The notes: generated by a model not told the origin, from the letters alone. Counted from the first letter of the stretch, positions 9,069 through 43,056 are shown. The stretch: 64,000 bases of DNA from Chitinispirillaceae bacterium (GCA_016929595.1 JAFGIN010000056.1:1-64000); one strand, 5' to 3'. A program made the numbers and translations.

Positions 9069-12000
9069 TCAATTTCCAACATTAGTTTTTATTTTTCTAC
9101 TCTTTCTTCGGCGTGCTTTCACCATCAGCTCATGCACTCGCAATGCCTGTATAACAAAAGCCTCCATATTCGCTTCAACAATCTGTGGAAAGGGTGAGCC
9201 ATCAGTTTCAATCGCAAGAAATGGCAACTTATCGATATCCTTATAGACGGTCTGATCAATACGGTTGCCATCACATCTCCTTTTACCCTCCACTGTCATC
9301 TCTTTTTTGAGGATCGATTCAGCCATTCTCGAAGGCATACAGCCAAAAGGACCGATCGAAATGATACCGCAACTGTCTGCCAGTATCTCTCTCAATCCAA
9401 GACCAACAGTAAGAATCGTTTCACCTCTGAAATTCTGATCCATCAAATGTGTGGCTGAATTGATTGTTTTTTCGACCTCGATGCTCTCAGCATGATACAG
9501 ACCACTTGCACTCATAATGTTTTTTATTCTTGTTTCCCACCACTCCTGTACTTCTGCAGTGAGCCTCATCTTTATTTTTTCCTTCAGTGTAAACTCCTTC
9601 TCACCAAGTCCGGTATTTACAACAAAGTTACTGTAACAAAGGTACTCACTTATGGGTGCCACCCGCACACGTATCCCTTCCTGTTCAAGATAATCGACAA
9701 TATTTTTACGCGAGAACTCATCGAGACGAACATAGATCTCACCAATCAACGAAACGGTCGGAATCTGATCCAGTGGTTTTTTAAGCTCTATCGTTGAGAG
9801 CCTTTGTGCACAATTAGACAGAAATGTAGAAAATCGCATTGAATACTTCCCTTCAAAATGGGCCAGAAGGTCATTCCACACCTCTTCAATCAATGCAAGT
9901 GATTTTTCAGGATCCCGGGCAGCCACAGCAACAGTACTGCGAATGCTTTCAATGACATCGCCAGTTACCATAGCTTGCCATCCACGCAGCAGTGTGGCAT
10001 TTCCAAGACCGGCATACCCATTCTCATCAGAAAGTACAAACAGTGCAGTATTTCTTATCTGTTCCTTTTCTATCAGGTAGTGAAGAGCACGGCAATACTG
10101 TCCCAGTCTGCAGGGTCCACCACCGGTAGGTAGAAAAAACAGACTGACTCTGGACGGATCTCTTTTCACCCGGGTGTAGTTGCCAAGAGATCCCGCAATA
10201 AGGATATAAGGAAGACATTCTTTACATGTAGATGACTTCCTTCCGGTAAGAAGTACCTCCCTGTCGGAGACCGGCAACGGAACAGTTCTAATACCCTGCG
10301 ATCTGAAAATTGCAGCAATAGAGCTGGTATTTCTCCTTCCCATAGAATGAAGAACAACTTCAACATCAGGATGCCGCAACGGCAGACGTCTTCCGTCGGA
10401 ATCGACGACCTCTATCTCTTTACCATAAACAACTTCAGTCTGTCTGAACTGTTTTTGGGCAGATCTCCTTTCTTCTCTATAAAATGCAGCCATGATATCC
10501 AGAGCTGCTTCAATACGTGTATCAATACCCGCATCGGCAGTATGCTGATCGAGTTCCAGTGTCAATGATGGCTTCGTACCCATCTGGCGTCTGAAAAAAT
10601 TGAGAAGAAATGAATCCGGTCCGCACGAAAAGTTTGTAATATAAAAACCGAAGAGATTTTTCTTTTCGGCTATAAATGCAGCACTTTTCATTATCTTCTG
10701 TCCATTAGCCCAGAACATTTTGTAATCGACTTCATAAGAGGCTGAGGGGAGCATATCATGAGGAATGATGAAGTACCCCCGTGATGCCGTTTTATCCGGT
10801 ATTCCCATATTGGCATCTTTTGTAAAAGAATTGTAAGGTCTTCCAAAAAGAACTATTCCGAAAATGTCATCATTTGCATCGAGATATTCAAGAACTTTTT
10901 TACCAATATCGACGCACTCCTTTTCAAATTCTCTTTGGCGACAACAGGCCTGAAGATATGCTTTTCGGGCAACGCTTTCACCAACCCCCATCGTCCGGGC
11001 CACATCGATCATAGTATCAAGCGCAGCCTCGTAACCGTTCTCCATCTTTTTTATTACGGGACTGATTATATTTACTGGTAATTGTTCAAGCTCCTCCCGG
11101 AATGTTGTTTTAAGATAATACGGTTCCCCCTGTACAAAAACACACATTCTGCTGTAGGTTGGAACATTAGCAACAGGAAGCTGCATAACTTGAGGAAGGA
11201 ATATGAAATCAGGGTTTTTTTTCAGCAATGCATAAAAACTGCCATGAGCGATCTCTGCAGGGAGACAGAATTCAGATTCTTTACGGGAAATCCCCTCCTG
11301 GTCGATTTTTTCGGGAAAAACGATAGTAAATCCCATCGCACTGAAAAAATTAGAATAGAGCGGATAAAGTGAATGCATGATAAATGAATTCATCAACCCT
11401 ACTGTTTTTGCAGGTTGATCGGGATTTACCTTGCTCATTGACGGTTTCACTCCGTACTTTTCGAACAGTAACTTTTGACGAAGTGCAACAAGATCAAATT
11501 TTCCGGTTATAACATTTTTCTTCAAACGAAGATTATAAAATCTGTTGCACACGCCACCGAACAGGTAATTTTTATTATCAATTTTAATTCTTCTGATCTC
11601 ACATCCACGATCACACTTCCCGCCGCCATTACATCTGAATGACCCGTTATTCACTGCTTCACGTAAGGATAATTCCTTAAGGTCGTACCGTTCTTCTTTC
11701 AATGCACCGGACCTGATCCGTTTCAAAACTTCAAGTGCGACACCGAAAGCACCCATCAGGCCGGGATCAGGCGGAACTATCACTTCTGCATCCATCAGAG
11801 ATGCCATCGCCAGAGGAACAGCTTTGTTGTAGCACACTCCCCCCTGCATGAAAATTTTTTTTCCAACCGGTCGTGAACCTTTCACTCTGTTAAGGTAATT
11901 CAGACAGATTGAATATACCAGGCCAGCCAGAATATCATCCTTATCTATGCCTTCCTGACCAGCCAGTTTGATATCACTGGAGATAAACGCAGCACACTGA

Positions 12001-13400
12001 TCGGTAAAATCCGGTGGATTCTCACCCAGTAATGCCCGTTCACCAATCTGCTCGGTAGTAATACTGAGCGATTCGCGGGCAGCTTCTTCCAGAAATGAGC
12101 CTGTCCCGGCACTACAGGCTTCATTCATTGCGTAATCAGAAGGAATCCCCGCATTGAGCAGGGTATATTTCGCATCCTGCCCGCCGATTTCGAAAATGGT
12201 ATCAACATCTTTATCAAAATAAACCGCAGCCCCCGCATGCGCTACAATTTCATTTACAATACAATTGCTTAACGAATGGAGTCCTGCGATCTGACGACCT
12301 GATCCTGTCACACCCAGACCTGAGACTGTATACTGCACGCCTTGAGTCTGTTGAAGAATCGATGAATAACATTGACGCGACGCTTCAACCGGATCTCCAT
12401 TTGTACGCAGATATACCGATGCAAGCATGCTTGAATCATCAATGCGCATGAGCACCGCTTTGGTCGTTGTCGAACCGACATCAAGACCGATGACGCACCT
12501 GTCACCCTCACAGACAGAACCTTTCTCCTGCAATCTGAAACTGACCAGATGCATTGCATTACGCAACGGTTTATGTTTCCCGAAAGAGGTTCGAACAATG
12601 TTTATAAGTTCTTCGTAATTATCGTCCAGCCGGATACAGGTATTGTCAAGTGCATAGAGCGCAGCACCAAACGCCTCAAAGCACGATGAATTCTCAGGGA
12701 TATCAAAACGCTCAAACCGCTCTTTCAGTATATCAATCACCGCATGATTCAGAGAGCCTCCTCCTGTAAAAGCAGCAGATTCCACATGCAGTTTCTTTAC
12801 TAAATCACTCACCTTATCAGCCATCATCAAACAAAGACCGGCCGCGATATTTGCCCGGCTCTCCCCTTTATTGAGTGCATGGGTACAATCACTTTTACAA
12901 AACACACTGCAGCGACCGGCAATCCGATGTGGTACCCCTCCCCGGGCTATCCTGATCGCCTCATCCAACTCAAGTCCCATACGACGTATCTGCTGCAGAA
13001 AAAATTCTCCGGTACCTGATGCACACTTATTGCCGGAATGCACCGATGTGATCCCTCCATGCCTGCCAACCGAATAAACCAGAAGTGTTTCCCCTCCCGA
13101 ACTGATAACAATTTCAGGGAAATCTCTTTGAGAATAGGTCTGTTTGAGAGCATATTCCACAGCCAGCGGCTCTGTTATCGTAGTGAGCGCTACATTTTTT
13201 CTGAAAGAACGACCGGTAATAACAACGTCAGCGATATTGTCATGACGATACTCTGCAAACAAACCCCGTACAACCTCCCCCGGGCTTCCTTCATGTAGAA
13301 CTCTCGATGATGAAACAACCTCTTTTATTCCATTGTTCTCCGAAATTACAACCGACTGAACAGTGGTTGAACCAATACAGATTCCAGCCGCTTTTCTCAT
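9069..13400 (-). CDS. Giant acyl-CoA dehydratase activase (BcrAD/BadF/HgdC type, tandem ATPase with DUF2229)
   Basis: At 1443 aa this matches the large activase family in which two ASKHA ATPase domains are fused to DUF2229 and HgdB-like regions. The first ATPase domain (about 1-255) has CIGSTTVQSVVI and GNKCASGTGEFF. The second (about 295-560) has GLDVGSTTTKAVL, GGQDAKYTLL and NEACSAGTGSFLE, whose Cys near 428 is the expected ligand of the bridging [4Fe-4S] cluster. A Cys-rich GGKCDRGCEIRR follows near 600, then the DUF2229-type half with many further cysteines. Family members use ATP to drive low-potential electrons into 2-hydroxyacyl-CoA dehydratases or benzoyl-CoA reductases. No dehydratase subunit lies nearby, so the partner is unknown. 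The ATG at 13400 follows AGGA. A 295-bp divergent intergenic region lies upstream. Confidence 0.88.
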   Translation of the reverse strand: MRKAAGICIGSTTVQSVVISENNGIKEVVSSSRVLHEGSPGEVVRGLFAEYRHDNIADVVITGRSFRKNVALTTITEPLAVEYALKQTYSQRDFPEIVISSGGETLLVYSVGRHGGITSVHSGNKCASGTGEFFLQQIRRMGLELDEAIRIARGGVPHRIAGRCSVFCKSDCTHALNKGESRANIAAGLCLMMADKVSDLVKKLHVESAAFTGGGSLNHAVIDILKERFERFDIPENSSCFEAFGAALYALDNTCIRLDDNYEELINIVRTSFGKHKPLRNAMHLVSFRLQEKGSVCEGDRCVIGLDVGSTTTKAVLMRIDDSSMLASVYLRTNGDPVEASRQCYSSILQQTQGVQYTVSGLGVTGSGRQIAGLHSLSNCIVNEIVAHAGAAVYFDKDVDTIFEIGGQDAKYTLLNAGIPSDYAMNEACSAGTGSFLEEAARESLSITTEQIGERALLGENPPDFTDQCAAFISSDIKLAGQEGIDKDDILAGLVYSICLNYLNRVKGSRPVGKKIFMQGGVCYNKAVPLAMASLMDAEVIVPPDPGLMGAFGVALEVLKRIRSGALKEERYDLKELSLREAVNNGSFRCNGGGKCDRGCEIRRIKIDNKNYLFGGVCNRFYNLRLKKNVITGKFDLVALRQKLLFEKYGVKPSMSKVNPDQPAKTVGLMNSFIMHSLYPLYSNFFSAMGFTIVFPEKIDQEGISRKESEFCLPAEIAHGSFYALLKKNPDFIFLPQVMQLPVANVPTYSRMCVFVQGEPYYLKTTFREELEQLPVNIISPVIKKMENGYEAALDTMIDVARTMGVGESVARKAYLQACCRQREFEKECVDIGKKVLEYLDANDDIFGIVLFGRPYNSFTKDANMGIPDKTASRGYFIIPHDMLPSASYEVDYKMFWANGQKIMKSAAFIAEKKNLFGFYITNFSCGPDSFLLNFFRRQMGTKPSLTLELDQHTADAGIDTRIEAALDIMAAFYREERRSAQKQFRQTEVVYGKEIEVVDSDGRRLPLRHPDVEVVLHSMGRRNTSSIAAIFRSQGIRTVPLPVSDREVLLTGRKSSTCKECLPYILIAGSLGNYTRVKRDPSRVSLFFLPTGGGPCRLGQYCRALHYLIEKEQIRNTALFVLSDENGYAGLGNATLLRGWQAMVTGDVIESIRSTVAVAARDPEKSLALIEEVWNDLLAHFEGKYSMRFSTFLSNCAQRLSTIELKKPLDQIPTVSLIGEIYVRLDEFSRKNIVDYLEQEGIRVRVAPISEYLCYSNFVVNTGLGEKEFTLKEKIKMRLTAEVQEWWETRIKNIMSASGLYHAESIEVEKTINSATHLMDQNFRGETILTVGLGLREILADSCGIISIGPFGCMPSRMAESILKKEMTVEGKRRCDGNRIDQTVYKDIDKLPFLAIETDGSPFPQIVEANMEAFVIQALRVHELMVKARRRKSRKIKTNVGN

Positions 13401-30178: not shown

Positions 30179-30550
30179 GTGGCAAAATACAGAGATCTTA
30201 TACTGGAAATAATCAAAGCATCTTCCGGACATATGACCGCAGAAGCGATATACCTGGAAGCAAAGAAATTGCAGCCCTCAATAGCGGTGGGTACAGTGTA
30301 TCGCAATCTGAGGCTTATGACTGAAGCCGGCGAGATCAAACGTGTTGTCATGGCTAATTCGCCTGATATATTTGATATATCTACTCATCCCCACGCGCAT
30401 CTGATCTGCCAGAAGTGCCATACGATAGCGGATTTTTCTATTTCCAACCTGGAAGAACATCTTCAGAAACTGACAGGTTTAGAAATACTTGGTTATGACC
30501 TGAACGTACGATACATTTGTAATATCTGTAAAAAGAAAGGAATTGGATGA
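30179..30550 (+). CDS. Fur-family regulator, PerR-like
   Basis: This 123-aa winged-helix metalloregulator is likely a PerR-type peroxide sensor. The DNA-binding domain includes HMTAEAIYLEAKK and the recognition helix AVGTVYRNLRLM. The structural zinc site is formed by two CxxC pairs (C77/C80 and C114/C117). The regulatory metal site region IFDISTHPHAHLIC carries the expected Asp and His residues. The GTG start at 30179 is the only start in frame after the stop at 30149; no good Shine-Dalgarno sequence is seen. It heads an operon with rubredoxin- and rubrerythrin-type peroxide-reducing proteins and overlaps the next gene by four bases. Genomic context favours PerR over Fur, though sequence alone cannot settle the metal. 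Confidence 0.85.
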   Translation: MAKYRDLILEIIKASSGHMTAEAIYLEAKKLQPSIAVGTVYRNLRLMTEAGEIKRVVMANSPDIFDISTHPHAHLICQKCHTIADFSISNLEEHLQKLTGLEILGYDLNVRYICNICKKKGIG

Positions 30551-31215
30551 GGAAATTCAAATGCACTATCTGCGGTTTTATTTTTGATGAAGCTGTGGGA
30601 ATGCCGGAACAGGGCATTGCACCCGGAACAAAGTGGGAAGATATCCCCGACGATTTTACATGCCCGCTGTGTGGAGCACCGAAGTCTGCTTTTGACGAAA
30701 TGAAGGAGCAGGCAGCCGTTGCAGTTGCACCTGTAACTGAGCCGGATTCAGGGTTTGATGAGTTAAGAGAACTTTCTGCCGGAGAATTGAGTGTGGTGTG
30801 TTCCAATCTGGCAAATGGGTGTGAGAAACAGCACCTTACGGAAGAGATGGGCTTGTTTAACCAGCTGGCTGCCTATTATAAAAGTAAGGAACCTGTGCAA
30901 AAAGGGAAAACGTTTGATGATGCAGGCAGGCTTCTGGATACAGATCTGTCTGAAAGCTATGCAAATGTTACAGCTGCTGCAACATCAAAAACAGACCGCG
31001 GGGCACTTCGTGCTCTGGTGTGGAGTGAAAAGGTAAGCAGAATGATAAAATCACTTCTCGACCGATATTCAAGAGAAGGAAATACGATGCTCGAAAACAC
31101 AAAAATATACGTCTGTGACATCTGTGGCTTTGTATATCTTGGAAACAATCTTCCTGAAATCTGTCCAGTATGTAAAGTACCCAATTACAAAATAACGCAG
31201 ATAGAAAGGAGATAG
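30547..31215 (+). CDS. Double-rubredoxin-domain protein
   Basis: This 222-aa protein has an N-terminal rubredoxin domain (C6-TI-C9 and C39-PL-C42, with [20 protein letters not shown] between), a helical middle of about 120 residues, and a C-terminal rubredoxin-like knuckle pair ([14 protein letters not shown], then [11 protein letters not shown]). The two iron centres would pass single electrons, most likely to the rubrerythrin encoded next, in a peroxide-reduction pathway of anaerobes. Its ATG overlaps the PerR stop codon (ATGA). The middle region resembles the helical spacer of multidomain rubrerythrin-type proteins but lacks the full set of diiron ligands, so it is probably not itself a peroxidase. 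Confidence 0.8.
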
Positions 31216-31219
31216 CATC

Positions 31220-32275
31220 ATGCCAGCAGTTAGAAATATCAAATTATGTACAAAAGATTGCATGTGCCTTTATGTCTGCCCCACAGGAGCAACAGACACA
31301 GAAAACAGTATCATTGATGTAAATAAATGCATAGAAGGCTGTAGAAAGTGTGTTGACGCATGTCCCTCGGGAGCAATTTCACTTCTGCCGGTGAGCTATC
31401 CACCGCAGCAGCCCAAAACAGATCTGGTCGTGAATGCCATGAGATCACTAACACAAAGTAAAGTCAAGCAGGAGCATATCGCTGCTGAAATAGCAAAAAC
31501 AACCGATAACCCTGTTACCCGTCAGTTTGCCGCGGCGATATCAAAATCCTGCAGACTCATGGCGGAAGATTTAGTCAGAGAATCGGGGTACATGCTTCCG
31601 CAGAGCAATGAAGTGCGAAACCTTCTGGAAGAGATGAAGCGGAATAGAAAAAAAGGCTTTCCGGTTGAAACAGTAGAAAAACTCTTAACAAAACTTAATA
31701 AAACAGAATCAGATAACATAAACAAAGGAGAAGGAACGTTGAATCTCAAAGGAACAAAAACTGAGAAAAATCTGGCTGAAGCATTTGCAGGTGAATCACA
31801 GGCAAGAAACAAGTACACCTACTTTGCATCAGTTGCGAAAAAGGAAGGTTTTGAACAGATTGCAGCAATTTTTGAAGAAACCGCACTCAATGAAAAAGAG
31901 CATGCAAAACTGTGGTTTAAAGCTCTTGGCGAGCTGGGTGACACAGCCACAAATCTGCTTCATGCAGCAGAAGGCGAACACTATGAATGGACTGACATGT
32001 ACGAAGGTTTTGCAAAAGATGCTGAAGAAGAGGGTTTTACCGCTCTTGCAGCACAGTTCAGAATGGTTGCAAAAATTGAAAAAGCACATGAAGAGCGCTA
32101 TCGTGCGCTGCTCAGTAATGTCCAGATGCAGAAGGTGTTTGAAAAGGGAGAAGAGACCATGTGGGAATGCCGTAATTGCGGACATCTTGTCATGGGTAAA
32201 AAAGCTCCGCAAATCTGTGCTGTCTGTCAGCATCCGCAGAGCTACTTCGAAGTTCGAAAAGAAAAAAATTATTAA
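31220..32275 (+). CDS. rbr: Ferredoxin-rubrerythrin fusion protein
   Basis: This 351-aa protein joins three parts. Residues 1-60 form a two-cluster 4Fe-4S ferredoxin-like domain ([17 protein letters not shown] and [18 protein letters not shown]). Residues 60-170 form a helical linker. From residue 174 on it is a complete rubrerythrin: [26 protein letters not shown], the EGEHYEW segment and [10 protein letters not shown] supply the diiron ligands, and WECRNCG...CAVCQHP is the C-terminal rubredoxin centre. Rubrerythrin reduces hydrogen peroxide to water. In related anaerobes, as I recall, the ferredoxin-like and rubrerythrin parts are separate neighbouring genes. AAAGGAG precedes the ATG. A second ribosome-binding site lies inside the gene before the rubrerythrin part. 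Confidence 0.85.
31724..31741 (+). promoter_or_regulatory. Internal ribosome-binding site and TTG start for stand-alone rubrerythrin
   Basis: AAAGGAG (31724-31730) lies eight bases before an in-frame TTG at 31739, exactly where normal rubrerythrins begin ([16 protein letters not shown]). Translation from here would give a 178-aa stand-alone rubrerythrin in addition to the fusion. Confidence 0.6.
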
Positions 32276-36297: not shown

Positions 36298-37572
36298 TTA
36301 AGCGTTCCTGATTTTCCGCACCCTTCTTATCGTTTTGAACAATGGCCATGTAATAATAAAAGCTGCAATCCCACTCAACGGTGCAAGTAGCAGCGTACCA
36401 AGGAACCATTGAATAAATCCGTGAAGAAACCCGCTTACCATTTTATTGGCCAGAAATTCAAACAATTTTCCAGGCAGTACTCTTTCCAGTGCCTCCGCAA
36501 TCTGTATCGCAGTCTCCATGGGTACAAGCACCTTGCCAAGACCCAGCCCTGCGGCAATCCAGAAAGGGATCAACGGTGCAGATGACACACTGACACCAAG
36601 CAACGCCAGCGGACGGTTCAACCTGCAAAGAAACGCAATCACAAGTAACATCAGAACCTGAAAACCATGAAAAGGCGACACTGCAATGGTCACCCCCACC
36701 CCAAACGACAGTGCAGCTTTAAACGGTGTGGCGTTTGAGGTCAGCTCATTTTTAATCAGATACGAGAGTTTTTTTCTTATCCGCAACCCAGGCACATTGA
36801 TTAGCTGCGATGGGAAAAAAACTCGTGAAATTACAGCCCGGCCATTTACAACACTGATCTGTATGAAATCCCGTATCGAACGAAATAAAGGCAGCCGTTT
36901 CTTCTTGAGTTGACATAACATATGCACCGGTATACTTTTTACAGGAGTATTGCTCCATGCTGCACAAATAAGTACTTCGATCTCATACTGGTAGCGCTCA
37001 CTATAGCAACCGAGGTTCTCAATTGCAGCGAGTGGATAGCTCCTGAATCCCGATTGTGTATCCTGGATCGGAGAACCTGTGTATAATTTGTACCAGAAAG
37101 CCCAGAATCGACGACCTATCTGTAAACTCGAAGGCTGAGTCGCACGATCGGCAAGGGGTATAACACGTGCACCAACCCAGAGTGTCTGCGGCTCATCATT
37201 TATCTTTTGTAAAAATAACGGCAGATCCTCTGCAAGATGCTGTCCGTCAGCATCAACGGTAATCGCATGAGTAAAATGATGCTTAAGTGCATACGCAAAT
37301 CCACTCCTGAGCGCCGCACCTTTGCCACGATTGTGTTCATGACGAAGCACAATTATGGAACTGATTCCACTGCAAACAGCAAATGTACTGTCTGTCGAAC
37401 CATCATCAACGACAACGACATCTCTACAATACCGAAGAACACCAGCGATTACCCCCGCTACAGTAGATCCATCATTGTAGACAGGGATAACCACTATCAC
37501 CCGATTGCCAAGCTTACTTTCAATAGCAGTATCATCGCACACCAGAGCGTTTTTACTACTCACATCACTCAT
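36298..37572 (-). CDS. GT2 glycosyltransferase fused to DUF2062 membrane domain
   Basis: This 424-aa protein has an N-terminal GT-A domain of the polyprenyl-phosphate glycosyltransferase type (VIVVIPVYNDGSTVAGVI, VVVVDDGSTDSTF, HNRGKGAALRSGF, VDADGQH with the metal-binding DxD-like motif). From about residue 285 a hydrophobic DUF2062 domain follows (GVGVTIAVSPFHGFQVLMLL, SAPLIPFW, then a C-terminal helix pair). GT2 enzymes of this class move sugars to lipid carriers or lipids at the inner membrane face. Its ATG overlaps the stop of the upstream PaaK-like ligase gene (ATGA), so the two are translationally coupled and probably act on one pathway. The sugar and acceptor are unknown. Confidence 0.85.
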   Translation of the reverse strand: MSDVSSKNALVCDDTAIESKLGNRVIVVIPVYNDGSTVAGVIAGVLRYCRDVVVVDDGSTDSTFAVCSGISSIIVLRHEHNRGKGAALRSGFAYALKHHFTHAITVDADGQHLAEDLPLFLQKINDEPQTLWVGARVIPLADRATQPSSLQIGRRFWAFWYKLYTGSPIQDTQSGFRSYPLAAIENLGCYSERYQYEIEVLICAAWSNTPVKSIPVHMLCQLKKKRLPLFRSIRDFIQISVVNGRAVISRVFFPSQLINVPGLRIRKKLSYLIKNELTSNATPFKAALSFGVGVTIAVSPFHGFQVLMLLVIAFLCRLNRPLALLGVSVSSAPLIPFWIAAGLGLGKVLVPMETAIQIAEALERVLPGKLFEFLANKMVSGFLHGFIQWFLGTLLLAPLSGIAAFIITWPLFKTIRRVRKIRNA

Positions 37573-38867
37573 GCTGCTGTTACCAGATTTTTTCTCCAGT
37601 CTACAATCCGGGTTTTCTTGCGTGAAATTCCCCTGAATGACTGAATCGTATTAACATTAGAAACAAGAACAGGGAAATTTATCCGCGTAGCAACACGAAG
37701 CTGATTGGCAATCTGCTCGACCGATGATGGGGGAGCGGCAACATGAATCGATACCCGATCGGAACGCGCATCTTCATTTTCAAGAACAATAATGTAATCA
37801 TTGATGGTATCGATGGCATCCAGAACATTTGTCAATGTCAGGGGAAATATCGTTGTACCCTTGATTTTAATAATCTGTGACTTTCGTCCCAGTATCGGAC
37901 CAATCCTTACAGAGTTTCTCCCGCAACTGCACGTTTCCGAAATTCTGAAAGTGATGTCACCTGTTTTAAATCGTACCAGCGGTATACCTTCAACCCCCAG
38001 CGGAGTCGCTACAAGTTCGCCCGGAGTTCCATCAGGGACAACGACTCCTTTGTCGTCCACAATTTCGGTGTATACCAGTTCCGGATGCGAATGGCCGCCT
38101 TGATGAGCCTGACACTCGCAGTACGAAGCCGAAAGTTCGGTTGACGTATAACTTGAGTAGACATCAGCCCCCCACAATTGCTCCAGAGTAGAAGCCAGAG
38201 CGTTTGGTTCCATAGAAGCGGTTTTGAGACTTTCACCAACACACACCAGTTTTTTAACGCTGCATGCACTGGTGTCAAACTTTAACTCATTAAGTTCTTT
38301 GCCAAGTTTTTTAAGAAACGTTGGTACCCCGACAAGCACCTGCGGTTTAAAGAAATCAAGATAATACTTCTGCATCTCCAGTGGAAGCACCCCCACACGC
38401 ATCGTGTTGGCGCCCAGAAGTGATAGCCCGCGGTAATAAGCTATACCTGCAATAAAAAGACGATCCAGACTTACCAGTATGTGCACAGGATCACCCTGTT
38501 TTACACCGATACTATGAAACGAGAGTGCTTCGTTATAAGCAAGCCTTTCAAGATCGTTTGATGTCAATGTCAATGGCACGGGCACTCCGGTTGAACCGCT
38601 TGTCACTACCGTTTCAACTATTTTTTCGGCGGATACAGCTTGAAAATGCTGATAGTGCCTGGCAATATGTTCTTTATTTGTAAAAGGAATCCGTTGAAAA
38701 TCTTCTATTGTTGTTATATCACCAGGTTCAATAGCAGCGTACGCCTCCTGGTAAAACGGCGATACTTCTTTGACGTGTGACACATGATTACGTAAAGCTC
38801 TCAGCGTTTTGGCTGCGATCTCATCCGAAGGCAGAAACTCCCATGAAAATTCAGGTTTAAAAGCCAA
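37569..38867 (-). CDS. PaaK/CapK-like AMP-forming acyl- or aryl-CoA ligase
   Basis: This 432-aa member of the ANL superfamily resembles phenylacetate-CoA ligase and CapK. It shows the ATP-binding loop VVTSGSTGVPVPLTL, the VGVPTFLKKL region, the SSYTSTELSASYCEC segment, RFKTGDITFRISETCSCGR and the late hinge GRKSQIIKIKGTTIFP. Such enzymes activate a carboxylic acid as an acyl-adenylate and pass it to CoA or a carrier. The TTG start at 38867 is chosen because GGAGG sits about nine bases upstream. Translation is coupled to the following glycosyltransferase-DUF2062 gene. It lies 115 bp downstream of radC in a run of same-strand genes that begins with the fused E1. The acid substrate is not readable. 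Confidence 0.85.
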   Translation of the reverse strand: MAFKPEFSWEFLPSDEIAAKTLRALRNHVSHVKEVSPFYQEAYAAIEPGDITTIEDFQRIPFTNKEHIARHYQHFQAVSAEKIVETVVTSGSTGVPVPLTLTSNDLERLAYNEALSFHSIGVKQGDPVHILVSLDRLFIAGIAYYRGLSLLGANTMRVGVLPLEMQKYYLDFFKPQVLVGVPTFLKKLGKELNELKFDTSACSVKKLVCVGESLKTASMEPNALASTLEQLWGADVYSSYTSTELSASYCECQAHQGGHSHPELVYTEIVDDKGVVVPDGTPGELVATPLGVEGIPLVRFKTGDITFRISETCSCGRNSVRIGPILGRKSQIIKIKGTTIFPLTLTNVLDAIDTINDYIIVLENEDARSDRVSIHVAAPPSSVEQIANQLRVATRINFPVLVSNVNTIQSFRGISRKKTRIVDWRKNLVTAA

Positions 38868-38982: not shown

Positions 38983-39744
38983 TCAACGCGGCCAGCGCGA
39001 TTGTTCCCGCAGACTGACTACTTTGTGGCTACAGATAATTATATGGTCGAGCAACGGTATTTCAAGCAGTTTTCCAACGGTAAAAAGTCGTTCGGTGATT
39101 AGCCAGTCAGCATCAGAAGCGCTGACACTCCCACCAGGATGATTATGAGCAAGAATCATCGATGTTGCACTATTTCGAAGTGCCTTTTCAATCACGATTC
39201 TCGGGTAGACAGCACACTGGTTAACCGTGCCCTCAGCAATTATTTCGGTACGAATAATGTGGTTAGCGTTATCCAGAAAAAGAACCGCAACATATTCATC
39301 CCGACGCTGCCCGAAATAAAACCGCAGATACTCTTCAACATCCCGCCGATGTGAAACGACACTCTGTTTTTGATATTTTTCATTGAGACAGTACGCAATC
39401 AGGTCACGAATCAGCAAAAACATTGCCGCAGACCGCTCACCAATACCTTCAACTCCCGCCAACTCATCAATTGGAGTATTTATAACCCCACCTATGGTTT
39501 TGTAGCGGTCGAGCAGTTTGCGGGCGATTGGTTTTGTATCTTTACGAGGGAGTACAAAGGTAAGAAGCAGCTCAAGAATCTCGTGATCATGCAGAGCAGA
39601 GATTCCATTCTGCTGGTATCGTTGAAGTAACCGTTTGCGGTGGCCTTCTACAGAATTTTTTTCTGATGTATCAGTTTTTCGATTAACATCCTGATCGGTT
39701 GTTACCACTGCTTCAGTTGTAAAATTCTGTTCCTGCGCACACAT
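38983..39744 (-). CDS. radC: RadC family JAB-domain protein
   Basis: This 253-aa protein has the RadC layout: an N-terminal UPF0758 region with a helix-hairpin-helix-like segment (GVEGIGERSAAMFLL) and a C-terminal JAB/MPN metalloprotease-like domain with the JAMM motif HNHPGGSVSASDAD preceded by the Glu of IIAEGTVN. It ends in the standard DHIIICSHKVVSLRE. The biochemical role of RadC is unsettled; the old DNA-repair assignment is not well supported. It lies 22 bp downstream of the lipoyl-KASIII gene and is probably cotranscribed. Its length is slightly above average because of a charged N-terminal extension of about 35 residues. Confidence 0.93.
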   Translation of the reverse strand: MCAQEQNFTTEAVVTTDQDVNRKTDTSEKNSVEGHRKRLLQRYQQNGISALHDHEILELLLTFVLPRKDTKPIARKLLDRYKTIGGVINTPIDELAGVEGIGERSAAMFLLIRDLIAYCLNEKYQKQSVVSHRRDVEEYLRFYFGQRRDEYVAVLFLDNANHIIRTEIIAEGTVNQCAVYPRIVIEKALRNSATSMILAHNHPGGSVSASDADWLITERLFTVGKLLEIPLLDHIIICSHKVVSLREQSRWPR

Positions 39745-39766: not shown

Positions 39767-41098
39767 TTACCACTCGATTGACATGCCTGCAGCGGTGACT
39801 CCCGCGCCGACAGTACAGAATATAAGTTTGTCTTTTTTCTGTATTCCCCGTTCGATTTCAGAAAGCGCCACAGGTATACTTGCGCTGGATGTATTTCCCA
39901 AACGGTCTATGTTAATGTAAAAGCGATCGAATGATACACTCGTCTTGGCAGCAGCAGCTTTAAGAATGCGGCTGTTTGCCTGATGCGGTACAACCCACCT
40001 GACTTCATCAGCATCCCATTTACTTTTAGCAATAAGATCATTAATGATAAATGAAAAGCGTTCAGTTGCAAACCGAAAGAGTGCCTTTCCATCTATCCGG
40101 AGCCAGGGGTCACAATTGACACAATTTGCCGGAATTTCATTCCCGAATGTTTCCCGTCGGGCCATTTTAATTCCAGCGGGATCTGCAAGCATTATTTCGC
40201 TGCGTATCAGATGCCCTTTCTTGACACTCGAAACAACAGTAGCCCCCGCACCATCACCAAAAAGAAAGTACGTGCTTCTATCTTTTTTATCCAGTAAACG
40301 TGACTGTATCTCTGCTGCAACAACCAGTATATTCGACCCCATCCCCGATAATATCAACCCTTTTGCAACTGACAGGGCATAGAGCCATCCCGAACAGGCA
40401 GCATTGAGATCAAATGCCAGGGCACCCCTGATTCCAAGTTTATCCTGGAGAATACACGCTGTCGAAGGCATCATATAGTCTGGCGTTGTTGTAGACAGAA
40501 TAATTCCATCGATCTCTTCGGGCTTGAGTCCCGAACGCTCGATGGCAAGTTTTGAAGCTTTCAGCGCCATGTCCGAAGGCATCTCATCGGGTTTTGCCCA
40601 ACGACGTTCGCGAATTCCGGTTACACCAAAAATATAATCATCGTTTATATCTGTATGATCAGCAAGTAGTGTACTGTTAGGAATAACCGTCTCGGGAATA
40701 TACGTTCCGATACCCAGCAGATAAACATCCTTTACCGCTGGTGTACCGCTTGCAGCGGATGCCGGTGGCGTAGAAGCCATTGATGGAAAAGATTCAATCA
40801 CTGGTGCTGCACCAGCAGCGGGTATCTGTGATTTTATCGATTTATCATCTGTTTCAATCTCGATAACTGCTTTTTCGAATGGAACGGAAACACTCTCTTC
40901 AACAAGAAGCCGTACCACTTTACCAGCACAGGGAGCATTGAATTCGAATGTTGATTTTGCACTCTCAACTTCAGCAATCACCTGATCCCTGGAAAAAACA
41001 TCACCGGCCTTAACATGCCATCTGGTAACCATCGCCTCAGTCTCGGCTGCAGCCTGGGCAGGCAAATACAAGGAAATTTTAAAAGTATCGTTACTCAC
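39767..41098 (-). CDS. Lipoyl domain fused to ketoacyl-ACP synthase III
   Basis: This 443-aa protein is an unusual fusion. Residues 1-82 form an E2-type lipoyl domain (WHVKAGDVFSRDQVIAEVES, with Lys48 in ESAKSTFE as the lipoylation site). An Ala/Pro/Ser-rich linker spans about 88-122. Residues 124-443 form a complete KASIII (FabH-like) domain: GIGTYIPETVIPN, the VTGIRERRWA segment, nucleophile Cys235 in LNAACSGWLYAL, His372 in VPHQANSRILKA and Asn402 in RLGNTSSASIPVAL. The GTG start overlaps the stop of the fused E1 gene (GTGA). Inference: the lipoyl arm is acylated by that E1 and hands the acyl group to Cys235, replacing the usual E2 acyltransferase. The product could be a branched or odd starter ketoacyl chain, or the domain could be an acyltransferase. 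No E3 is nearby. Confidence 0.85.
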   Translation of the reverse strand: MSNDTFKISLYLPAQAAAETEAMVTRWHVKAGDVFSRDQVIAEVESAKSTFEFNAPCAGKVVRLLVEESVSVPFEKAVIEIETDDKSIKSQIPAAGAAPVIESFPSMASTPPASAASGTPAVKDVYLLGIGTYIPETVIPNSTLLADHTDINDDYIFGVTGIRERRWAKPDEMPSDMALKASKLAIERSGLKPEEIDGIILSTTTPDYMMPSTACILQDKLGIRGALAFDLNAACSGWLYALSVAKGLILSGMGSNILVVAAEIQSRLLDKKDRSTYFLFGDGAGATVVSSVKKGHLIRSEIMLADPAGIKMARRETFGNEIPANCVNCDPWLRIDGKALFRFATERFSFIINDLIAKSKWDADEVRWVVPHQANSRILKAAAAKTSVSFDRFYINIDRLGNTSSASIPVALSEIERGIQKKDKLIFCTVGAGVTAAGMSIEW

Positions 41099-43056
41099 AT
41101 TGAACTCCCTAATAATGAACGAATAGTCTGATTAATAACAGCTGAATCTGGAATATGTTCCTGTTCCAGTTCTCTGGCAAAAGGAACCGGCATATCCGGA
41201 GCACCGAGAAGAACTGGAGCATCTTTAAGATTTTTAAAGCACTCCTTAACTGTAAGAGCTATTATCCGATCTCCCAATCCACTCATCGCACTACTCTCCT
41301 GAACCACCAGGAGCCTTCCGGTTTTTTTGCACGACTCAAGAATCGGTCCGATCTCAAGTGGTGATAATATAAATGGATTCCACACCTCTGCGGAATAGTT
41401 CTGTGAAGAAACTACAGATAAAACGGTTTCCGCCATCGCCCCGAAAGCTACAATTGTGAGATCAGTTCCATCACAATACTTCCGTGGACGAAAAATTGCG
41501 TCAATATTTCCATCGAAATGAACATCAGAAGGTTTTCCCCAATAGAGCTTTTTGTGTTCGAACACAAGACAGGGATTGGGATCATAAAAGCCAGCAATGA
41601 TGGCCTCAAAATGCTCCTGAGGTGTTGACGGATAAAAAACTTTCAACCCTGGAAATCTCCCCCAGAACCCTTCAAATTCGCCTGAATGAAACGGGCCGAG
41701 GGTTATCCCCCCCCCACTCGGAAGCCTGAAAAGCAGTGATGCGCTCTGATCAGTCCGGTAGTACCAGGTGGCACAATTTAAACTGAGCTGAGTAACTGCA
41801 TCAGTACTGAAATCGGCAAATTGAAACTCCATAATCGGTTTTCGACCAATCTGAGATGCACCAAGACAGAACCCAACTGTCGCTGATTCACAGATTGGCA
41901 TATCAATCACCTGCTCCGATCCAAACTTATTAATCAGACCTTTACAGGTTTTAAATACTGATCCATAGACACCGATATCCTGTCCACAGATAAAAGAGTC
42001 CGGATTGTGCTCTAAAATGTAATCTAAAGCTGCAGCAACAGCGCTTTGATTTCTCAACCCTTTGGCAGAAAATGGAGCGATTTTGATAGTACTTTCACGA
42101 GGTGCATAAGGAGTTGAAGGCAGTGAAGTTACAGATGGTCTGCTGAATGAAAGCGCTTCGGTAACAACCTGATCGACCAACACGTCGATCTCTTCATGCA
42201 ATGATTCGATATCTTCTGAACTCACACCCCTTGCGATCAATGTTTCCTTAAGGCGTACAAACGGCTCCCGTAAAAGCCATTTTTCATACTCCTCTTTTGG
42301 TACATATTCGGCATTATCATAGACAGCATGTCCCTCAAGACGAAGGGTCATGCACTCGATAATGCGAGGAAGCGAATCTTCAGCCATCCCCTGCAACGCA
42401 TCATAAACCGCACTATATACCTCCCAGACATCGGTACCGTCAATGGTTTTACCCTCGATACCATATCCGACTGCCCGGTCAGAAAGTTTTTCACAATTGT
42501 ATTGTAAAGCTGTTGGCGTTGAATAGGCATAATGGTTATTTTCAATTATAAAAAGTACCGGTACTCTGTGAACAGATGCCAGATTGAGCGATTCATGTAT
42601 ATCGCCAGTACTGCTCCCTCCGTCACCAATCGTCGTCAACCCGAAAACCTTCTCTCCCCTGCTTCGGGCAGCCCACACTCCACCAACAGTAAGTGCGACC
42701 ATACTTCCCAGATGACTTATCATCGGAAAACGGCGTTTTAAAATGTCTCCATGATGAACATTCCCCTCCCGGCCATGTGTCGGGCTGTTTGAATTAGCCA
42801 TGTACTGACACATCAATTTGAGAGGATCCGCCCCGGAGACCAGATGTCCCGCAAAATCACGATGCATAAGAGAAAGAACATCGAACCCGCTTCTGAACGG
42901 AAGAGTCATGCCAACTGACGTCGCTTCATTACCCGAACAGATTATAACGGTACCCTTAACGTGCCCTTTTTTAAATAACTCCTTGATTTTAGTCTCCATA
43001 CTGCGTGCTAAGCATATGTAATAATATGCTACCTGATAGAGACTGTCCTGATCCAT
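41095..43056 (-). CDS. Fused alpha/beta E1 of a 2-oxoacid dehydrogenase
   Basis: This 653-aa protein joins E1-alpha (about 1-310) and E1-beta (about 335-653) by a Ser/Pro-rich linker. The alpha part has the thiamine diphosphate motif from GDGG (144-147) to ENNHYAYS (NN at 173-174). The beta part has CGQDIGVYGSVFKTCKGL, the catalytic-site Glu region DMPICESATVGFCLG, EFQFADFS and the late VPFARELEQEHIPD. Such E1 enzymes decarboxylate a 2-oxoacid (pyruvate, branched-chain or acetoin-type) and reductively acylate a lipoyl group. Single-chain alpha/beta E1 proteins are known from the Bacteroidota. The only lipoyl protein nearby is the overlapping lipoyl-KASIII fusion, which is the likely acceptor. 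The substrate is not readable from sequence alone. Confidence 0.9.
   Translation of the reverse strand: MDQDSLYQVAYYYICLARSMETKIKELFKKGHVKGTVIICSGNEATSVGMTLPFRSGFDVLSLMHRDFAGHLVSGADPLKLMCQYMANSNSPTHGREGNVHHGDILKRRFPMISHLGSMVALTVGGVWAARSRGEKVFGLTTIGDGGSSTGDIHESLNLASVHRVPVLFIIENNHYAYSTPTALQYNCEKLSDRAVGYGIEGKTIDGTDVWEVYSAVYDALQGMAEDSLPRIIECMTLRLEGHAVYDNAEYVPKEEYEKWLLREPFVRLKETLIARGVSSEDIESLHEEIDVLVDQVVTEALSFSRPSVTSLPSTPYAPRESTIKIAPFSAKGLRNQSAVAAALDYILEHNPDSFICGQDIGVYGSVFKTCKGLINKFGSEQVIDMPICESATVGFCLGASQIGRKPIMEFQFADFSTDAVTQLSLNCATWYYRTDQSASLLFRLPSGGGITLGPFHSGEFEGFWGRFPGLKVFYPSTPQEHFEAIIAGFYDPNPCLVFEHKKLYWGKPSDVHFDGNIDAIFRPRKYCDGTDLTIVAFGAMAETVLSVVSSQNYSAEVWNPFILSPLEIGPILESCKKTGRLLVVQESSAMSGLGDRIIALTVKECFKNLKDAPVLLGAPDMPVPFARELEQEHIPDSAVINQTIRSLLGSSM

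Follow-up and report, generated by a model that had tools for sequence, protein, structure and literature searches.

What can a decarboxylating E1 do when the gene that overlaps it encodes, in the place of a conventional E2, a lipoyl domain joined to a ketosynthase? The question is raised by two genes on the minus strand of a 64,000-nucleotide stretch of DNA from a Chitinispirillaceae bacterium (GCA_016929595.1, JAFGIN010000056.1:1-64000; the window), whose genome assembly comprises 6.6 Mb in 224 contigs. The initial annotation of this DNA described a single-chain E1, with alpha and beta parts, overlapping by four bases the gene for a protein with an E2-type lipoyl domain (Lys48) and a complete ketoacyl synthase III (KASIII) domain (Cys235, His372, Asn402). 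Both descriptions were confirmed: the open reading frames lie where they had been placed and overlap by 4 nt, Pfam recovers the domains of each protein, and the named residues of the second are invariant in alignment.

The first gene (41095..43056, minus strand) encodes a fused alpha-beta E1 of the 2-oxoacid dehydrogenase type, 653 amino acids long, in which E1_dh (PF00676), Transket_pyr (PF02779) and Transketolase_C (PF02780) make up a single chain. Its thiamine diphosphate (ThDP) motif is intact, and the motif, His243 and His457 are all invariant in an alignment with homologues that are 56-65% identical. The nearest structures to the alpha half are branched-chain E1 proteins, and the beta half carries the motif QFAD(F/Y), as in the BCKDH of P. 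putida, and not the QFFGF of the B. stearothermophilus PDH. Phe66 and Tyr95 of the T. thermophilus E1, alpha-chain positions lining the substrate pocket, align with Thr36 and His65 in the window protein. These active-site positions look remodelled, and the substrate of the E1 is for that reason uncertain.

The second gene (39767..41098, minus strand) begins with GTG, is preceded by an AGGGAG ribosome-binding site within the end of the E1 gene (41105..41110), and encodes 443 amino acids in which Biotin_lipoyl (PF00364, residues 12-80) is followed by ACP_syn_III (PF08545) and ACP_syn_III_C (PF08541). An AlphaFold2 model with a mean pLDDT of 80 shows two folded parts, one a lipoyl barrel and the other resembling FabH, with a disordered linker between them. 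The lipoyl domain comprises residues 1-92 (40823..41098), with Lys48 (codon 40955-40957) in an invariant E-S-A-K motif. A biotinyl identity for this domain was considered and rejected, as it has no biotin AMKM motif and its best relatives are E2 lipoyl domains. The linker, residues 93-121 (40736..40822), has pLDDT values below 50, and Pfam matched neither an E3-binding PSBD there nor an E2 catalytic domain (PF00198) anywhere in the protein. The KASIII domain, residues 122-443 (39770..40735), aligns by Foldseek with FabH structures at a target TM of about 0.85-0.89. It keeps Cys235, His372, Asn402 and Arg377 (the equivalent of FabH Arg249), and it has Tyr155 and Val159 in place of FabH Trp32 and Arg36. 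Across a 26-row alignment of fusions, ESAK48, Cys235, His372 and Asn402 are invariant.

The KASIII domains of 28 fusions were compared by alignment with 44 FabH proteins, 41 of them from Fibrobacterota genomes and the others from E. coli, Phocaeicola and Fusobacterium. In CoA-bound FabH the adenine is hydrogen-bonded by Thr28 and stacked by Trp32 on one side and Arg151 on the other, and the pantetheine is held in part by Arg36 (PMC4606726). Each of these four residues is present in 44 of 44 FabHs. In the fusions, Trp32 has become Tyr and Arg36 has become Val without exception (28/28 each), Thr28 is replaced in 27 of 28, and position 151 is relaxed to Arg (13), Lys (12), Met (2) or Glu (1). Of all columns in the domain, just nine are fixed to different residues in fusions and FabHs (at least 90% in each group), and Trp32 and Arg36 are two of the nine. 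Three further positions, 87, 142 and 189, which belong to the acyl pocket, have also changed (Phe87 to Met in 26/28, Leu142 to Gln and Leu189 to Ala in 28/28). Cys112, His244, Asn274, Asn247 and Arg249 (FabH numbering), the last being the ACP-docking residue, are invariant in all 28 fusions and all 44 FabHs. Loss of the CoA contacts with retention of the catalytic and ACP-docking residues is the pattern that would be expected if the donor were no longer carried on CoA and the acceptor were still malonyl-ACP. The loss of Arg36 is not specific to CoA, because this residue also touches phosphopantetheine, and an acyl-ACP donor could leave a similar change at that position.

The fusion is not peculiar to the window. 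Full-length homologues, 56-66% identical and free of internal stops, occur in 25 further genomes. Among 168 Fibrobacterota genomes the fusion was found in 27, every one from the order to which the window belongs; it is absent from all five genomes of family f7 and from all of the Fibrobacter-like genomes (family f8) examined. In a sample of 392 Planctomycetota the E1-fusion pair is present in two (L078; L163/L172), and the genes around the pair on L172 look planctomycetal. For other phyla the search consisted of scanning the lipoyl region with a sequence pattern only, and divergent relatives beyond the Fibrobacterota and Planctomycetota may for that reason be missed. The plasmids searched yielded stand-alone KASIII genes and no fusion, and the viral contigs searched yielded no fusion. 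In a tree of the 28 fusion domains and 44 FabHs, the fusions form one clade apart from the FabHs with a support of 100/100; one FabH row was mis-framed, which does not affect the fusion clade.

We also asked whether the fusion co-occurs with the fused E1, a check that the initial annotation had proposed. Wherever the contig reaches far enough, the same E1 lies directly upstream of the fusion, at 23 Fibrobacterota loci (the window included) and in both Planctomycetota. Of 34 genomes checked for E1_dh, six that are fusion-less (G005, G009, G029, G034, G037 and G038) have no E1 of any kind. The E1 and the fusion are thus strictly linked. The smaller genomes from termite guts retain the E1, the fusion and a neighbouring radC-family gene, with the remaining downstream genes gone, which marks the E1 and the fusion as the core.

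Partner genes elsewhere in the genomes narrow the possibilities further. In eight fusion genomes (G003, G007, G014, G015, G018, G019, G020 and G025; completeness 89-99%) the sole strong E1 is the one linked to the fusion, the other matches being weak and transketolase-like, and no PF00198 domain was found. Within that completeness, the E1 of these genomes cannot rely on a canonical E2, and the objection that it might work exclusively with a separate E2 falls away there. E3 (TIGR01350) was matched in 32 of 32 genomes, above cut-off in 27. All eight E2-less genomes have an E3 above cut-off and a lipoate ligase, and seven have LipA above cut-off, the eighth (G019) having a fragment only. GcvH, another user of lipoate, was found in nearly all genomes checked. 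The lipoate machinery is therefore no proof that Lys48 is lipoylated, and the notion that it is kept solely for the fusion was rejected. The window's own genome has canonical PDH genes (E1alpha-E1beta-E2) and a standard fab operon that includes a separate FabH, and a canonical FabH is retained by nearly all carriers of the fusion, so that the module is an addition and not a general replacement of either system. On this point the initial annotation is corrected.

We consider the most probable reading, at roughly 0.6, to be that the gene pair is a priming module without E2 or dependence on CoA, running from a 2-oxoacid through acyl-lipoyl and the KASIII cysteine to beta-ketoacyl-ACP. By the chemistry of its family, the E1 with ThDP would decarboxylate the 2-oxoacid and reductively acylate the lipoyl moiety of Lys48. 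Swinging on the disordered linker, the arm would then bring its acyl cargo to Cys235 in the attached KASIII domain. Malonyl-ACP would dock at Arg377, and His372 and Asn402 would support a decarboxylative condensation whose product, beta-ketoacyl-ACP, would enter fatty-acid synthesis, while a stand-alone E3 would reoxidise the dihydrolipoyl arm. That the lipoyl arm passes its acyl group directly to the KASIII cysteine, with no acyl-CoA in between, had been proposed in the initial annotation and is well supported by comparison (the lost CoA contacts, the strict linkage and the eight E2-less genomes); that the acyl group is then condensed, as opposed to simply transferred, we infer from the triad and the Arg249 equivalent. 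The same annotation held that E3 would be needed only under some conditions. We revise this point, because each acyl transfer would leave the arm reduced; E3 would be required at every turn, and E3 genes are present.

The likeliest substrates would be branched 2-oxoacids, among whose products 2-methylbutyryl would prime anteiso fatty acids. Carriers would then probably initiate fatty acids with 2-oxoacids that derive from amino acids, no acyl-CoA being made beforehand. The dominant fatty acid of Chitinispirillum alkaliphilum ACht6-1 is ai15:0, whereas Chitinivibrio has 16:0 and 16:1, and F. succinogenes 13:0 and 15:0 (PMC4814513). The module is present in the putative C. alkaliphilum genome (G007) and was not found in the groups of Chitinivibrio or Fibrobacter. 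Its presence and absence agree with ai15:0, a correlation across three cultured species that is suggestive only, and ferredoxin-dependent oxidoreductases could instead supply the branched primers. Should the module work as proposed, it would account for the possible synthesis of anteiso-15:0 in an anaerobe that lacks E2, such as Chitinispirillum.

The genes downstream of the pair hint at a different product. The next gene on the same strand (38983..39744) encodes a RadC-family protein by Pfam, adjacent in 22 loci. It is the sole radC copy in most fusion genomes, so that its adjacency may be plain synteny, and we rejected the idea of a specialised paralogue serving as a part of the machine. Beyond it, in the same run and on the same strand, lie a PaaK/FlxY-like AMP-dependent acyl ligase (37569..38867; 16 loci) and, as the last gene, a fusion of a GT2 glycosyltransferase with DUF2062 (36298..37572; 10 loci), the latter identified by Pfam. 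Eleven relatives have a TonB-dependent-receptor-like gene between radC and the ligase and GT2 genes, which the window does not. The ligase and GT2-DUF2062 neighbours point faintly to some particular lipid and away from fatty acid in bulk, and we regard it as possible, though less probable than membrane branched fatty acids, that the same chemistry serves to make, by way of these two enzymes, a pigment or a specialised lipid of the aryl or acyl type. This alternative concerns the product only, and its mechanism overlaps with that of the priming module. The best model for the ligase is the flexirubin ligase FlxY (NF053551), which it matches at 421 bits, below the cut-off of 520, and the strong remodelling of the pocket residues also speaks for this alternative. 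However, several termite-gut and other genomes have neither ligase nor GT2 gene beside E1-fusion-RadC, so that the core pair works without them, and no aryl-polyene ketosynthases, ACP or DarA/DarB were seen among the window ORFs around the locus or in the flanks of relatives.

The step assigned to the KASIII domain is also open to another interpretation, namely that it is an acyltransferase only, standing in for the E2 core and passing the lipoyl-borne acyl group to ACP or another acceptor with no carbon-carbon bond formed. The domain does occupy the position of an E2 core, and some KASIII-like enzymes, such as CerJ and DpsC, are acyltransferases. Pure acyltransferases of this kind often lack part of the triad, though, and the full decarboxylative Cys-His-Asn triad is invariant in 28 of 28 fusions. 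CoA is moreover an unlikely acceptor, because the residues that would contact it are lost. We judge this interpretation improbable.

Far less probable still is the idea that the KASIII domain continues to draw on acyl-CoA or acyl-ACP, with a lipoyl domain that has nothing to do with acyl transfer and serves as an appendage for docking or redox purposes. The canonical catalytic core is compatible with it, and the lipoylation of Lys48 is a prediction; yet CoA-contact residues are changed in every fusion, the lipoyl motif at Lys48 is invariant, and the E1 always lies next to the fusion, with no other strong E1 in eight genomes. As for an E2 fragment joined to FabH by faulty assembly or gene calling, a possibility that the initial annotation had raised in the form of a frame break and that the fusion's absence from the literature searched might seem to favour, it is refuted by the relatives: the 25 further full-length homologues have no internal stops, and the fusion stands in a single frame in 27 genomes drawn from several families, as well as in two Planctomycetota, forming one clade (100/100).

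How does the proposed priming module compare with known systems? With the PDH and BCKDH complexes it shares a ThDP-dependent alpha/beta E1, a flexibly linked lipoyl arm that can swing, with a lysine of the modifiable type in the motif ESAK48, and E3 for reoxidation, which is available in these genomes. Those complexes have a CAT-type E2 core and a PSBD and release acyl-CoA, whereas the module has neither domain, ends in a ketosynthase and is expected to yield beta-ketoacyl-ACP. With FabH the fusion shares the fold, the triad, the docking arginine and 35-40% identity; it differs in its fused lipoyl donor domain, its replaced or relaxed CoA contacts (Thr28, Trp32, Arg36, Arg151), its altered acyl pocket and its separate clade. 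Because the E2 core and PSBD of the one and the CoA-binding residues of the other are missing, the module is strictly neither a 2-oxoacid dehydrogenase nor a FabH, and it may best be pictured as working like the front half of the former joined to the latter. Bacillus and Staphylococcus use a BKD complex and a branched-chain-specific FabH, with a free acyl-CoA intermediate made by the E2. The net conversion of a branched 2-oxoacid into a branched beta-ketoacyl-ACP is the same, but there the halves are separate and linked through acyl-CoA, while here they are fused and CoA is apparently skipped. Flexirubin and aryl polyene clusters (PMC3992019) likewise place a FlxY-like AMP ligase near a KASIII; the window locus differs in that no DarA/DarB or aryl-polyene cluster was seen beside it. 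The parts of that paper's text that were searched contain no dehydrogenase or lipoyl term, and the searched parts of the celluxanthene and flexirubin papers mention no lipoyl-KASIII part.

The module is a real, conserved system with no counterpart described in the literature searched, where lipoyl-KASIII fusions are likewise undescribed, in agreement with the earlier statement that no such architecture was known. Judging from sequence comparison, we lean towards regarding it as an enzyme complex of a new type, a 2-oxoacid:malonyl-ACP ketosynthase that would use a lipoyl-tethered acyl group directly for carbon-carbon bonds, without an E2 and without passing through acyl-CoA, and prime fatty-acid or related lipid synthesis from amino-acid-derived 2-oxoacids. 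Were this so, it would be a 2-oxoacid decarboxylating complex with its E2 core swapped for a ketosynthase, turning ThDP and lipoyl chemistry to chain initiation; acyl-lipoyl would be added to the acyl donors of KASIII enzymes, and engineers would gain a way of supplying branched or unusual primers without drawing on CoA pools.

Several minor observations were made along the way. Several relatives (L026, L028, L031; cluster c11) have, close to the E1 gene, a gene for a protein resembling the large subunit of RuBisCO. Many records of Clostridioides difficile plasmids (NZ_CP149745.1 65376-67307, hit H18, and its sisters) carry adjacent E1 alpha and E1 beta genes of the 2-oxoacid dehydrogenase type. 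The window's genome has a third KASIII-like gene (G000:C157; L053 9764-10816), beside radical-SAM-like and flavodoxin/ferredoxin-like genes. Elsewhere in the window, positions 9069-13400 encode a very long protein (1443 aa) that resembles a 2-hydroxyacyl-CoA dehydratase activase, and two adjoining open reading frames at 30547-32275 are rubredoxin/rubrerythrin-like hybrids.
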